Positions 34,561 through 38,957 of a stretch of DNA of 64,000 nucleotides are shown here, piece after piece. A program made the translations under genes and the position numbers. This DNA comes from Bradyrhizobium murdochi. GTDB taxonomy: Bacteria > Pseudomonadota > Alphaproteobacteria > Rhizobiales > Xanthobacteraceae. Below the pieces are notes generated by a model. It was given only the letters and a program-made list of their open reading frames with translations. It did no database searches and had not been told where the DNA came from. The stretch covers positions 57,103-121,102 of the forward strand of contig NZ_AXAU01000012.1 in the NCBI RefSeq assembly GCF_000472965.1, written 5' to 3'. The first letter of the stretch is position 1. Every line of letters begins with the position of its first letter.

Positions 34561-34586
34561 GGCAAAAAGCGAAGGCTTTTTGCCGT
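34559..34586. terminator. Hairpin abutting the galU stop codon
   Basis: ACGGCAAAAAGC (34559-34570) pairs perfectly with GCTTTTTGCCGT (34575-34586) around GAAG. It touches the galU stop codon on the minus strand and the type H repeat on the other side. The T-run lies within the stem, so it is not a classical terminator, but it would form a stable 3' hairpin on either transcript. Confidence 0.5.
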
Positions 34587-35464
34587 CACTTCTCCAGATA
34601 CTTCTTCATCTCCGCGCGCAGGCCGTCGCGCAGGTCGGGGCGGGCCATGCCGTAGGCGATGTTGGCGCGAAGGAAGCCAGATTTCGAGCCGCAGTCGTGC
34701 CGCTCGCCCTCAAACTCCACGCCGTAGAACTTTTGCATCTTGGCGAGAGCTTTCATCGCATCGGTGAGCTGGATCTCGTTGCCCGCACCGCGCTCCTGGG
34801 TTTCGAGGATCTTGAAGATTTCCGGCTGCAGGATGTAACGCCCGGTGATCGAAAGATTTGACGGCGCGGTGCCCTTCGGCGGTTTCTCCACCATGCCGTC
34901 GACCTCGAACATGTTTTTGGCGAGGCGCTTGCCGACGCCGCAAATGCCGTATTGGTGGGTGAGATCGTCGGGCACCGCCTCCACCGCGAGCAGATTGGAC
35001 TTAGCGCCGAGTTTTGCCGCGGCCTCGATCATCTGCTTCAGGCAACCTGGGCTGTTGAGCACCAGTTCGTCCGGCAGCACCACGGCGAACGGCTCATCGC
35101 CAACAATATCGCGCGCGCACCAGACCGCGTGGCCGAGGCCGAGCGGCGCCTGCTGGCGGGTGAAACTCATGGCGCCGGCTTCGGGCTGGTCGCGCGCCAG
35201 GATGTCCTGCTCGGCCTTCTTGCCGCGCGCGGCGAGCGTGGTGTCGAGCTCGAACATCCTGTCGAAATGGTCCTCGATCACGCCCTTGTTGCGCCCGGTG
35301 ACGAAGACGAAGTGCTCGATGCCGGCCTCCTTGGCCTCGTCGACCACGTATTGAATCAGCGGCTTGTCGACGATGGTCAGCATTTCCTTCGGCATCGCCT
35401 TGGTGGCGGGCAGGACGCGGGTGCCGAGGCCGGCGACCGGGAAGACGGCTTTACGGATTTTCAT
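34586..35464 (-). CDS. galU: UTP--glucose-1-phosphate uridylyltransferase
   Basis: A 292-residue nucleotidyltransferase that makes UDP-glucose for polysaccharide and lipopolysaccharide synthesis. The nucleotide-binding signature GLGTRVLPATKAMPKEML lies near the N-terminus. DKPLIQYVVDEA, PLGLGHAVWCARDIVGDEPF and VEKPPKGTAPSNLSITGRYI follow in family order. ATG 35464 (MKIRKAVFPVAG) is the family start. It diverges from the lytic transglycosylase gene. Confidence 0.97.
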   Translation of the reverse strand: MKIRKAVFPVAGLGTRVLPATKAMPKEMLTIVDKPLIQYVVDEAKEAGIEHFVFVTGRNKGVIEDHFDRMFELDTTLAARGKKAEQDILARDQPEAGAMSFTRQQAPLGLGHAVWCARDIVGDEPFAVVLPDELVLNSPGCLKQMIEAAAKLGAKSNLLAVEAVPDDLTHQYGICGVGKRLAKNMFEVDGMVEKPPKGTAPSNLSITGRYILQPEIFKILETQERGAGNEIQLTDAMKALAKMQKFYGVEFEGERHDCGSKSGFLRANIAYGMARPDLRDGLRAEMKKYLEK

Positions 35465-35695
35465 GGGATGTCGGGCGCCTTGATATTGAGATTTGGAAAT
35501 CAGGAAAGTGCTTTGATTGCACGTTGATAGCCGGTTTGCACCCCTGAACAAAGGCGGATGTATGGTGGCGTTCCCGCCCGACTTGCGCCTCCCCTTGCGC
35601 GCACCGGGCGGGACAACAAAATGCCCTCTGTTAAGCTATTGGAAACCGTGTCAGGGCCTTCTGGCACGGGGTTGGTTTGGACGGACGGGTACGGC

Positions 35696-37078
35696 ATGGG
35701 TCTCTTGGAACGAGTGACGAGTAATCGAACCGGCGCGATCTTAATCGCCGCAGCGCTGTTGTGTTCCAGCGGCCAGTCCCTGGCCCAATCCTCCGGCAAC
35801 GGGGTTTCGAACTTTTTCGGCAACATCTTCTCAGGGCAGAAGGCGGTGGCGCAGCAGGCCATGCCCGGCCCGGACGGCAGTCCGCCGCCCTGGAGCGGCG
35901 AAGACGGCGCGTCCGGCCATCCGCTGATGACAGCGTCCGCGATCCGGCAGGCGGCGGCGAATTTTCAAAATTGCGTCGCCTCGATGTGGCCAGATGCTGC
36001 GCGGCGCAACGTCACCCAGCAAAATTTCGAGCGTTTCACCGCCGGCCTCGAGCCTGATTTGCGCATCATGGACCTGATGGATTCGCAGCCCGAGTTCACC
36101 AAGGCGATCTGGGACTATCTCGATATCCTCGTCAACGACAACCGCCTTGCCAAGGGCGGCGAGATCCTTGCCCAATACAAGCCGCAATTCGACGCGGTGG
36201 AGAAAGCCTATGGCGTCGACCGCTACATCATCGCGTCGATCTGGGGCATCGAATCGAACTACTCGACGCAAGTGGGCGATCGCAACGTCGTGCGATCGAC
36301 CGCGACACTGGCCTGCATCGGCCGCCGCCAGGCCTATTTCAAGGATGAATTCCTCACCGCGATCGAGATCCTCAACCGCGGCGATCTCAGACCCGAACAA
36401 ATGCGCGGCTCCTGGGCCGGCGCGTTCGGGCCGACGCAGTTCATGCCGACCGCCTTCAAGCGCTATGCCGTCGACGCCGACGGCGACGGCCGCCGCGACG
36501 TCGTCGACAACGTCGCCGATCTGATCGCCTCCACCGCCAACAACCTCAAGAAAGACGGCTGGCAGACCGGCCGGAGCTGGGGCTACGAGGTGGTGCTGCC
36601 GGAGGGCTTTAATTTCATGCTGGCGGACAAGTCCAAGGCGATGACGATTGCGCAGTGGCAGAGCCAGGGACTGAAGCGGGCCGATGGCAAGCCGTTTCCC
36701 GACACAACCGAGAGGGCCTATCTGCTGGCGCCGGCCGGCATGCAGGGGCCTGGCTTCCTGATGCTGCAGAATTTCCGGGTGATCATGAAGTACAACCCGG
36801 CCGAGGCCTATGCGCTGGCGATCGGCCATTTTGCCGACCGCCTGCGCGGCGGGCCGCCGTTCGTGCAACCCTGGCCGCGGCAGGAACGGGTGCTGTCGCG
36901 GGCGGAGCGACTGGAACTGCAGCAGCTCCTGGCGCAGCGCGGCTTCTACAAGGGCACGCCGGATGGCCAGTTCGGTGGCCAGACGCGGGAGGCGCTCCGC
37001 AGCTTCCAGGTTTCGATCGGAGCGCCAGCGGACGGATTTGCCTCTTCCGACGTGCTGGAGCGGCTGCGGGGCCGTTAA
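35696..37078 (+). CDS. Lytic murein transglycosylase, MltB family, with peptidoglycan-binding domain
   Basis: A 460-residue periplasmic enzyme that cleaves peptidoglycan glycan strands. From ATG 35696 it has a signal peptide (AILIAAALLCSSGQSLAQ). The catalytic domain (SLT_2/MltB type) contains the acid glutamate in SIWGIESNYSTQVGDRN, followed by WAGAFGPTQFMPTAF. A PG_binding_1 domain occupies about the last 65 residues (LQQLLAQRGFYKGTPDGQFG). In-frame ATGs at 35558 and 35621 exist, but 35696 gives the best signal peptide. The downstream DUF459 gene may belong to the same process. Confidence 0.92.
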   Translation: MGLLERVTSNRTGAILIAAALLCSSGQSLAQSSGNGVSNFFGNIFSGQKAVAQQAMPGPDGSPPPWSGEDGASGHPLMTASAIRQAAANFQNCVASMWPDAARRNVTQQNFERFTAGLEPDLRIMDLMDSQPEFTKAIWDYLDILVNDNRLAKGGEILAQYKPQFDAVEKAYGVDRYIIASIWGIESNYSTQVGDRNVVRSTATLACIGRRQAYFKDEFLTAIEILNRGDLRPEQMRGSWAGAFGPTQFMPTAFKRYAVDADGDGRRDVVDNVADLIASTANNLKKDGWQTGRSWGYEVVLPEGFNFMLADKSKAMTIAQWQSQGLKRADGKPFPDTTERAYLLAPAGMQGPGFLMLQNFRVIMKYNPAEAYALAIGHFADRLRGGPPFVQPWPRQERVLSRAERLELQQLLAQRGFYKGTPDGQFGGQTREALRSFQVSIGAPADGFASSDVLERLRGR

Positions 37079-37238: not shown

Positions 37239-38957
37239 ATGCGAAAGCCAACGTCCTTCTTGCGCGTGTTTACCGAGACCGGGCCACTGGTGGCGCTGGC
37301 GGTTGCGATCGCGCTCCTGATCGGGATCGTGGGACCCGCGTCGGCGCAGTTTTTCAATTTCGGCGGCTTTGGCGGGCCGCCGCAGCGGCAAGCGCCGCAG
37401 CGCGGCTGGTTCGGCGGCGATCTCTTTTCGCCATTCCAGCAGCAGGCCCCGCAGGCGCCGCGCCAGGATTTCTCCCGCGCGCCCGCGCCCGCCAAGCGAG
37501 ACACGGTGCCGGAACGCAACGTTCTGGTGCTCGGCGACGCCATGGCCGATTGGCTCGCCTATGGCCTGGAAGACGCTTATTCCGAGCAGCCCGACATGGG
37601 CGTGATCCGCAAGCACAAGACCGTCTCCGGCCTGATCAAGTATCAGCCGCGCGGCGAGCCCGCCGATTGGACCGCGGCCGCCAAGGGCATCCTCGCCACC
37701 GAAAAGCCCGATGCCATCGTCGTCATGCTCGGCCTCCACGACCGCCAGGCCATCCGCGAGGCGGTCACCGAGAAAAAGACCGACAAGAAGGAAGACAAGA
37801 AAGACGCGCGCGGCAAGACAGATACCAAGACGGATACCAAGCCGGCAGAGGCAAAGAAGCCGGAAGGCTCGGCTGACACGGCAAAGCGCGACGATAAGCC
37901 GGCCGATGCCGAATTGTCGCCTGACGATGCAGCCGATAGCGACACGCCACAAAACGCCGCACCCGCGCGATCTGGCGGCGGACTTTACGAATTCCGTGAC
38001 GAGCGCTGGGTCGAACTCTACACCAAGAAGATCGAAGAGCTGATCGGGGTGCTGAAATCCAAGGGCGTCCCTGTGTTGTGGGTCGGCCTGCCGGCGATCC
38101 GCGGGCAAAAGGGAACGGCCGACATGCTGTTCCTCGATGCGCTGTATCGCGACGGCGCCGGCAAGGCTGGCATCACCTATGTCGATATCTGGGATGGCTT
38201 TGTCGATGAAGCCGGCCGGTTCCTGCAGAAAGGTCCCGACTTCGAAGGCCAGATCCGCCAGCTCCGCACCGCCGATGGCGTCTTCTTCACCAAGCCCGGT
38301 GCGCGCAAGCTCGCGCATTATGTCGAGCGCGAGGTGACGCGCCTGCTCGCCGCCCGCTCCGGGCCGATCGCGGTGCCGATCGAACCCGCAACGCCGGAGG
38401 CCAATGCCGCGCCCGGCCAGCCGGCGCCGCGTCCGCTGGCCGGACCGGTCATGCCGCTGGTCGCCTCGTCCGTCGGCACCGATCAATTGCTCGGCGGTCC
38501 CGGCTCGCGTCCGGCAGCGGTCGATGCGCTCGCCGCGCGCACGCTGGTGAAGGGTGAAGCGTTGGCCGCGCCGGCCGGCCGCGCCGACGACTACGTATGG
38601 CCTCGTCGCGAAATCGGCCGCGAGCCGGCGAAGGGCGATACGCCCATGGCGGCCACCTCACCGAGCGGAACCGCGGCAGCCGCCCCGCCACAGAAGCAGC
38701 TTTTACTGCCGCCGCCGCAGCAAACGCTGCAGCAACAGAAGAGACAACTGCCACCGCCGCCGATGCAGATCCGCCCGCCGCAAAATAACGGTCCGTCACT
38801 ACGTGACTTCTTCGGCGGGTTCGGGCTAGGGCCGCGGCCGCCAGCACCACCGGCGGCTGCACCGCCGCGTGGCCCCGCTGCTCTTCCTGGCGCGCCGCGG
38901 CCGCCGGGCAATGTCGGGCGCTCGGCAGAGGTTCCGCCGGGCATTTTCACGCGGTGA
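37239..38957 (+). CDS. DUF459 SGNH-hydrolase-like protein lacking the catalytic residues
   Basis: A 572-residue exported protein: signal/anchor at ~13-37, a Gln/Pro-rich linker, an SGNH/GDSL-like fold (~93-370) interrupted by a Lys/Asp-rich insertion (~175-245), and a long Pro/Ala-rich tail (~375-572). The SGNH signature residues are replaced: block I reads GDA at 99-101 where GDS carries the nucleophile, block III reads GLHD at 165-168 in place of GxND, and block V reads DGVF at 346-349 in place of DxxH. The fold context (ADWLAYGLEDAY, TKPGARKLAHYVEREV) is otherwise typical. It is predicted to be a non-catalytic cell-envelope protein, located 160 bases after the transglycosylase gene. Confidence 0.85.
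   Translation: MRKPTSFLRVFTETGPLVALAVAIALLIGIVGPASAQFFNFGGFGGPPQRQAPQRGWFGGDLFSPFQQQAPQAPRQDFSRAPAPAKRDTVPERNVLVLGDAMADWLAYGLEDAYSEQPDMGVIRKHKTVSGLIKYQPRGEPADWTAAAKGILATEKPDAIVVMLGLHDRQAIREAVTEKKTDKKEDKKDARGKTDTKTDTKPAEAKKPEGSADTAKRDDKPADAELSPDDAADSDTPQNAAPARSGGGLYEFRDERWVELYTKKIEELIGVLKSKGVPVLWVGLPAIRGQKGTADMLFLDALYRDGAGKAGITYVDIWDGFVDEAGRFLQKGPDFEGQIRQLRTADGVFFTKPGARKLAHYVEREVTRLLAARSGPIAVPIEPATPEANAAPGQPAPRPLAGPVMPLVASSVGTDQLLGGPGSRPAAVDALAARTLVKGEALAAPAGRADDYVWPRREIGREPAKGDTPMAATSPSGTAAAAPPQKQLLLPPPQQTLQQQKRQLPPPPMQIRPPQNNGPSLRDFFGGFGLGPRPPAPPAAAPPRGPAALPGAPRPPGNVGRSAEVPPGIFTR

Follow-up and report, generated by a model that had tools for sequence, protein, structure and literature searches.

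A DUF459 protein of the PatB family with a replaced catalytic site, encoded next to an MltB-type lytic transglycosylase in Bradyrhizobium

Why should a bacterium maintain, just downstream of an enzyme that cuts its cell wall, a protein that looks like an enzyme but has lost its catalytic residues? A locus of Bradyrhizobium murdochi raises this question in the 64,000-nucleotide stretch of DNA analysed here (the window; Table 1). A sequence-only reading took the gene product for an SGNH-fold pseudo-hydrolase that binds peptidoglycan or a modified sugar and regulates or scaffolds the neighbouring transglycosylase. We examined its family, its gene neighbours, the state of its site in relatives and the selection acting on it.

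RESULTS

The window protein is a PatB relative without the PatB catalytic residues

The protein matches the Pfam profile PF04311 (DUF459) with an E-value of 9.5e-51 and a score of 172.4 bits, against a curated cut-off of 27.2, in two stretches that flank a charged insert. A PDB search with a 23-sequence profile (E 0.001) gave only four sequence relatives, all of them chains of the PatB family (best E-value 2.3e-38). Profile alignment to these solved chains places Ala101 (motif G99-D100-A101, codon 37539-37541), His167 (G165-L166-H167-D168, codon 37737-37739) and Phe349 (D346-G347-V348-F349, codon 38283-38285) in the columns of the nucleophile Ser, oxyanion Asn and catalytic His of the GDS, GxND and DGVHFT or DGIHFT motifs. 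For gonococcal PatB, the part of PMC12148441 available to us gives Ser133, His305 and Asp302 as the triad and Asn196 as the oxyanion-hole residue. The window protein thus has neither the Ser-His-Asp triad nor the block III Asn of a PatB enzyme, and all three SGNH signatures are altered as the sequence-only reading had it; the triad Asp is nonetheless retained (Asp346). With the NCBIfam PatB equivalog NF045704 the protein scores 25.6 bits, where the cut-off is 580. A catalytic Ser and His elsewhere in the protein would have counted against a dead site, and no such pair stood out in the alignments, read by eye. We are confident that the protein is a pseudoenzyme, and it is probably secreted, judging by its sequence.

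Table 1. Coordinates of the genes and protein segments discussed (window positions unless a locus is named)
Feature	Position	Strand	Basis
GalU-type nucleotidyltransferase (control gene; a common neighbour)	34586..35551	-	Pfam NTP_transferase
MltB-type lytic transglycosylase (SLT_2 + PG_binding_1), ESNY Glu kept	35558..37078	+	profile matches, alignment
DUF459 / PatB-family pseudoenzyme, 572 aa	37239..38957	+	ATG start, translation and profile matches
Signal peptide-like N-terminal segment, ends ASA/Q	37239..37346	+	translation judged by eye
SGNH core part A, blocks I to III, including Ala101 and His167	37512..37760	+	alignment; edges hand-set
Lys/Asp-rich insertion, 72 codons, between block III and second core half	37761..37976	+	alignment
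SGNH core part B, including Asp346, Phe349 and the GPDxxGQxRxLRxxDG stretch	37977..38348	+	alignment; edges hand-set
Pro-rich C-terminal tail	38349..38954	+	translation
Upstream epimerase gene	L178 4565-5584
Upstream epimerase gene	L179 4587-5579
Upstream epimerase gene	L186 4834-5820
Upstream epimerase gene	L212 4886-5881
Upstream epimerase gene	L176 7127-8134

Structure prediction, which the earlier reading had proposed as a check, agrees with the fold. Confidence in the AlphaFold2 model is modest: mean pLDDT is 54.8, with 99 residues at 70-90, none reaching 90 and 172 below 50 (mainly in the N-terminus, the insert and the end). The model matches solved SGNH proteins. The top Foldseek ranks are five entries of PatB proteins, one of which, C. 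jejuni 8gr2, was deposited as an esterase. In VIA-align the C. jejuni PatB entries lead (8tlb, Z 16.1, rmsd 4.7, 193 aligned; 8gr2, Z 16.1, rmsd 4.1, 189 aligned), and gonococcal PatB, at Z 14.7, scores level with acetyl esterases such as 7ddy (Z 14.9). Despite this tie, a generic esterase identity is disfavoured, since PatB is the nearest family by sequence and by Foldseek. Of the proposed pseudo-hydrolase, therefore, the pseudoenzyme stands and the generic hydrolase does not: the nearest relatives are PatB O-acetyltransferases. Two beta-hairpins of PatB are suggested, in the available part of PMC12148441, to shape the surface for PatA and perhaps for peptidoglycan.

The gene is paired with MltB in many, not all, relatives

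Neighbours were compared in two samples. The Bradyrhizobium-type set consists of the best 80 of 426 loci and the window (81 copies) and therefore favours close relatives of the window's copy; the nearest named loci among these best 80 are Bradyrhizobium sp. sGM-13 (99%) and B. retamae Ro19 (98%). The sample of the order Hyphomicrobiales comprises 132 DUF459 domains from 121 sources (the window and 120 hand-chosen, non-random regions, some of which end at contig ends), with near-identical pairs counted separately. Ser/Thr or His is missing in 65 of the 132 copies, in one of them through a gap; we call these copies dead and the others intact.

The 160-base gap noted earlier is correct, as the MltB reading frame ends at 37078, and the position beside a lytic transglycosylase recurs. 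A same-strand upstream MltB gene is present in 77/80 Bradyrhizobium-type loci (best 80 of 426), within about 700 bases in 69 and at a gap of 979-2057 bases in the other eight. Across the order it lies within 1.5 kb of 74/132 copies, 34 intact and 40 dead. Conserved pairing thus holds in the clade of the window's copy (see below) and is not universal. The Glu of the MltB ESNY motif, which we take to be the catalytic residue, is kept in 92/92 sequences when counted by alignment column (a regular expression missed 28 of the 92). None of the 132 copies is fused to MltB in a single frame, and a scan for promoters and terminators returned 0 and 4 sites versus 0.4 and 4.0 in shuffles.

Does the pairing reflect function, or are the two genes merely inherited together? 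That the protein is a periplasmic glycan-binding or structural component unrelated to MltB, the pairing being inherited synteny beside galU, is possible and in our judgement somewhat unlikely. The control gene, an NTP_transferase match that we presume to be of GalU type, is also frequent beside the MltB-DUF459 pair, as inherited synteny would have it. Against this, the upstream MltB of the 74 copies mostly lies within a few hundred bases, and the correlation between DUF459 and MltB distances persists with GalU partialled out (partial r 0.747, 0/500 permutations as high, 55 triples), where it exceeds that of DUF459 with GalU (partial r 0.254). Linked genes have a common history, and so this correlation is weak evidence: it fits shared function and also the shared inheritance of adjacent genes. 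Residues that are commoner in MltB-linked copies also speak against an unrelated protein. MltB-linked copies, whether intact or dead, share R173, R304, D316, D323, Q338, K357 and E363, which are less frequent where the link is to MBOAT; positions 101, 170 and 349 fit a pattern of decay in the dead MltB-linked copies (39 dead and 34 intact MltB-linked versus 35 MBOAT-linked copies, compared by simple thresholds and uncorrected for descent).

The exceptions count against a partnership with MltB, and some favour the unrelated protein. Dead copies that lack both an upstream MltB and an MBOAT gene in the flanking stretch examined are common (24/132), although at L093, L149 and L206 less than 1 kb of upstream DNA is available and a gene could be missed. 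Six loci lacking both neighbours were scanned further: five (L176, L178, L179, L186 and L212) have a NAD-dependent epimerase gene upstream of the dead copy, where MltB lies in other genomes, and the sixth, L107, has an ATP synthase gene. In a clade of nine copies of the R/E/Q/W type, the upstream MltB is absent in 8/9. Conversely, Ser/Thr and His are retained in 29 copies that are linked to MltB and have no MBOAT nearby, and a dead site is therefore not required for pairing with MltB.

The genome also carries a second DUF459 copy (L093, contig C6), likewise without Ser and His. It lies 5' of an N-acetylmuramoyl-L-alanine amidase (Amidase_3) gene (L093 1008-2546 and 2834-3871), an arrangement also seen in L145. 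With only 2/121 sources showing it, the amidase was rejected as a standing neighbour of this copy.

Intact copies cluster with MBOAT genes

Within 3 kb, 31 copies have a PatA-type MBOAT gene as a neighbour; they surround 21 MBOAT genes. Of these 31 copies 30 are intact, versus 37/101 of the others. Classes were taken from a 17-seed profile and are the same as with an earlier 19-seed profile. Independent contrasts, with four supported pairs, give no MBOAT signal, and the association is confounded by descent. Loss of PatA was accordingly rejected as the cause of decay, intact copies being present also in genomes that give no MBOAT match, for instance G282, G339 and G295; decay after loss of the PatA gene is only a scenario. 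The 29 intact MltB-linked copies without MBOAT and the 24 dead copies with neither neighbour mean that the condition of the site is fully accounted for neither by pairing with MltB nor by absence of MBOAT.

No PatA-type MBOAT gene stands beside the window gene: the genome has a single MBOAT match, which lies on contig C8, and the window is on C3. The 309-aa frame downstream of that match gives no Pfam hit at E 0.01. MBOAT was found in 51/61 genomes of the genus, and G017, one of the ten without it, has the MltB-DUF459 pair (L151). In the available part of PMC1199599, peptidoglycan of B. japonicum 532C is 18.5% O-acetylated, and a Pat and an Ape3 protein are named for it.

Both MltB and MBOAT (within 3 kb) accompany five copies, all intact. 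At L153 (4369-10132), and also at L154, L165, L156 and L157, MltB, an intact DUF459 gene and MBOAT share one locus; the order at L153 is MltB, DUF459, a second GDSL-type gene and MBOAT. Such a locus could be a cluster for wall O-acetylation with a lytic transglycosylase among its genes. A further locus, L171 (6572-9920), has three consecutive intact DUF459 genes near an MBOAT gene.

The site was lost repeatedly within the order

DUF459 was found in 223/249 genomes of the order and 117/119 of the family. The 132 sampled copies divide into 60 with Ser and His, seven with Thr and His, 47 with both lost, ten with only Ser lost and eight with only His lost; the ten include L193, which has no block I in frame, was scored as lost on account of this gap, and was omitted from the trees and the residue comparison. 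The nucleophile position holds S in 68 copies, A in 22, F in 13, T in seven, R in six, E in five, other residues in ten and a gap in one. The His position holds H in 77, Y in 20, F in ten, N in nine, R in eight, G in seven and S in one. Other motif positions are conserved: the Gly and Asp of block I in 131 and 128 copies, the Gly of block III in 132, the Asp after Asn in 130, and the Gly and Asp of block V in 130 and 124.

A tree of 142 copies requires 16 changes between intact and lost, and supported branches force eight of these. If regain is disallowed, 19 clades are all-lost, and the window's copy belongs to the largest, which has 24 members (the trees were built by a quick method that leaves 46 branches open, and they do not unite the outgroup copies in one clade). 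In this clade His is missing in all 24 copies and Ser is kept in five, so that the simplest order there is loss of His first. A class-wide search gave a match over the cut-off in 14/192 genomes, including the window's own and two of its order; matches followed up were those above the cut-off other than weak joined-piece ones (G566, G439). All 11 full-length copies from outside the order (nine genomes) are intact, with Ser, Asn and His, and in the flanking stretch examined 9/11 have MBOAT within about 1.6 kb and 0/11 have MltB.

None of the 81 Bradyrhizobium-type copies keeps the catalytic His, which is replaced by Y in 54 and by F in 27; the nucleophile position holds A in 69, G in nine and S in three. 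Nine further residues of the motifs (G, D, G, D, R, D, G, F, T), by contrast, are invariant in 81/81. The oxyanion position is N in 66, H in 12, D in two and Y in one, which makes the Asn-to-His change of the window protein (His167) a local variant.

Could the protein still be an enzyme, with a site that uses other residues or with another Ser/His doing the chemistry? Asp100, Asp168 and Asp346 are near-invariant, the always aromatic His position of the Bradyrhizobium-type copies indicates a pocket that is not free to drift, and the deposition of 8gr2 as an esterase makes hydrolysis possible in the family. We nevertheless consider this improbable: no alternative Ser/His pair stood out in the alignments, as said above, and the replacements pair by lineage (A+Y, A+F, F+N, R+R, E+G), unlike what one conserved new mechanism would leave.

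The altered protein is under purifying selection

Median dN/dS is 0.132 for the DUF459 core, close to 0.121 for the MltB catalytic domain and 0.110 for GalU (Nei-Gojobori script, 1500 random pairs per region, of which the 1197 to 1493 with dS 0.15-1.2 were used). This is the behaviour of a maintained pseudoenzyme, and the question whether the replacements define a conserved subfamily can be answered in the affirmative, as they recur across the 81 copies under purifying selection. A relic turning into a pseudogene, which the differing Ser, Asn and His positions of close relatives might suggest, has a very small probability given this core value and a matching open frame in 80/80 Bradyrhizobium-type loci (best 80 of 426; full length not confirmed for each locus).

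The insert (median dN/dS 0.268) and tail (0.198) are the least constrained parts of the protein, and the view that they fit a binding role accordingly loses much of its force. Intact relatives such as L119 and L123 carry an insertion at the same place, but Pro/Ala-rich rather than Lys/Asp-rich; the presence of an insert was therefore rejected as the cause of decay.

DISCUSSION

The window protein has lost its catalytic residues and yet is preserved about as carefully as MltB, which points to a probable non-catalytic helper. The best single explanation, whose likelihood we regard as evenly balanced, is that it is a non-catalytic partner of MltB; it may bind MltB or glycan and regulate the transglycosylase. 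It probably descends from a peptidoglycan O-acetyltransferase that belonged to a PatB/PatA cluster. Within Hyphomicrobiales MltB would have become the neighbouring gene; in many lineages the locus lacks a PatA-type gene and the protein its triad, with the fold and other residues kept. The product could then be an adaptor that binds glycan strands (perhaps with O-acetylated MurNAc), MltB, or both, and that would place or gate the transglycosylase. According to the available part of PMC1199599, the mechanism of lytic transglycosylases needs a free C6-OH on MurNAc. A wider proposal, speculative and rather unlikely, is that DUF459 in Hyphomicrobiales is an O-acetyltransferase killed in several independent lineages and now a non-catalytic peptidoglycan reader, which targets or gates the lytic transglycosylase depending on O-acetylation; the writer and the reader of a single wall mark would then have a common origin.

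If the partnership with MltB is true, nodule bacteria and related groups have, in a widespread and strongly conserved dead relative of PatB, a defined candidate for the control of wall cutting. Annotation of a DUF459 gene as PatB acetyltransferase or SGNH hydrolase should then await a check of its triad. We found no literature on the MltB-DUF459 pair, judging by titles and the beginnings of abstracts, with subscription journals mostly outside the scope of the search.

Clusters for O-acetylpeptidoglycan with Pat and Ape, as described in the available part of PMC1199599, combine MBOAT and SGNH genes; L153 adds MltB to such a layout, whereas the window's locus is without MBOAT. The PatB enzymes (N. 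gonorrhoeae 7TJB, C. jejuni 8TLB/8GR2; PF04311) are like the window protein in sequence family, fold and motif order. In contrast to them, it has Ser, His and the oxyanion Asn replaced, carries a charged insert and a Pro-rich tail, and has MltB, not PatA, as its neighbour. Control of an active wall enzyme by a dead one is familiar from the degenerate LytM regulators EnvC and NlpD. Their fold and partner are unrelated to those considered here, and control of MltB is something we only infer, but the idea of a dead wall enzyme turned regulator would be common to both.
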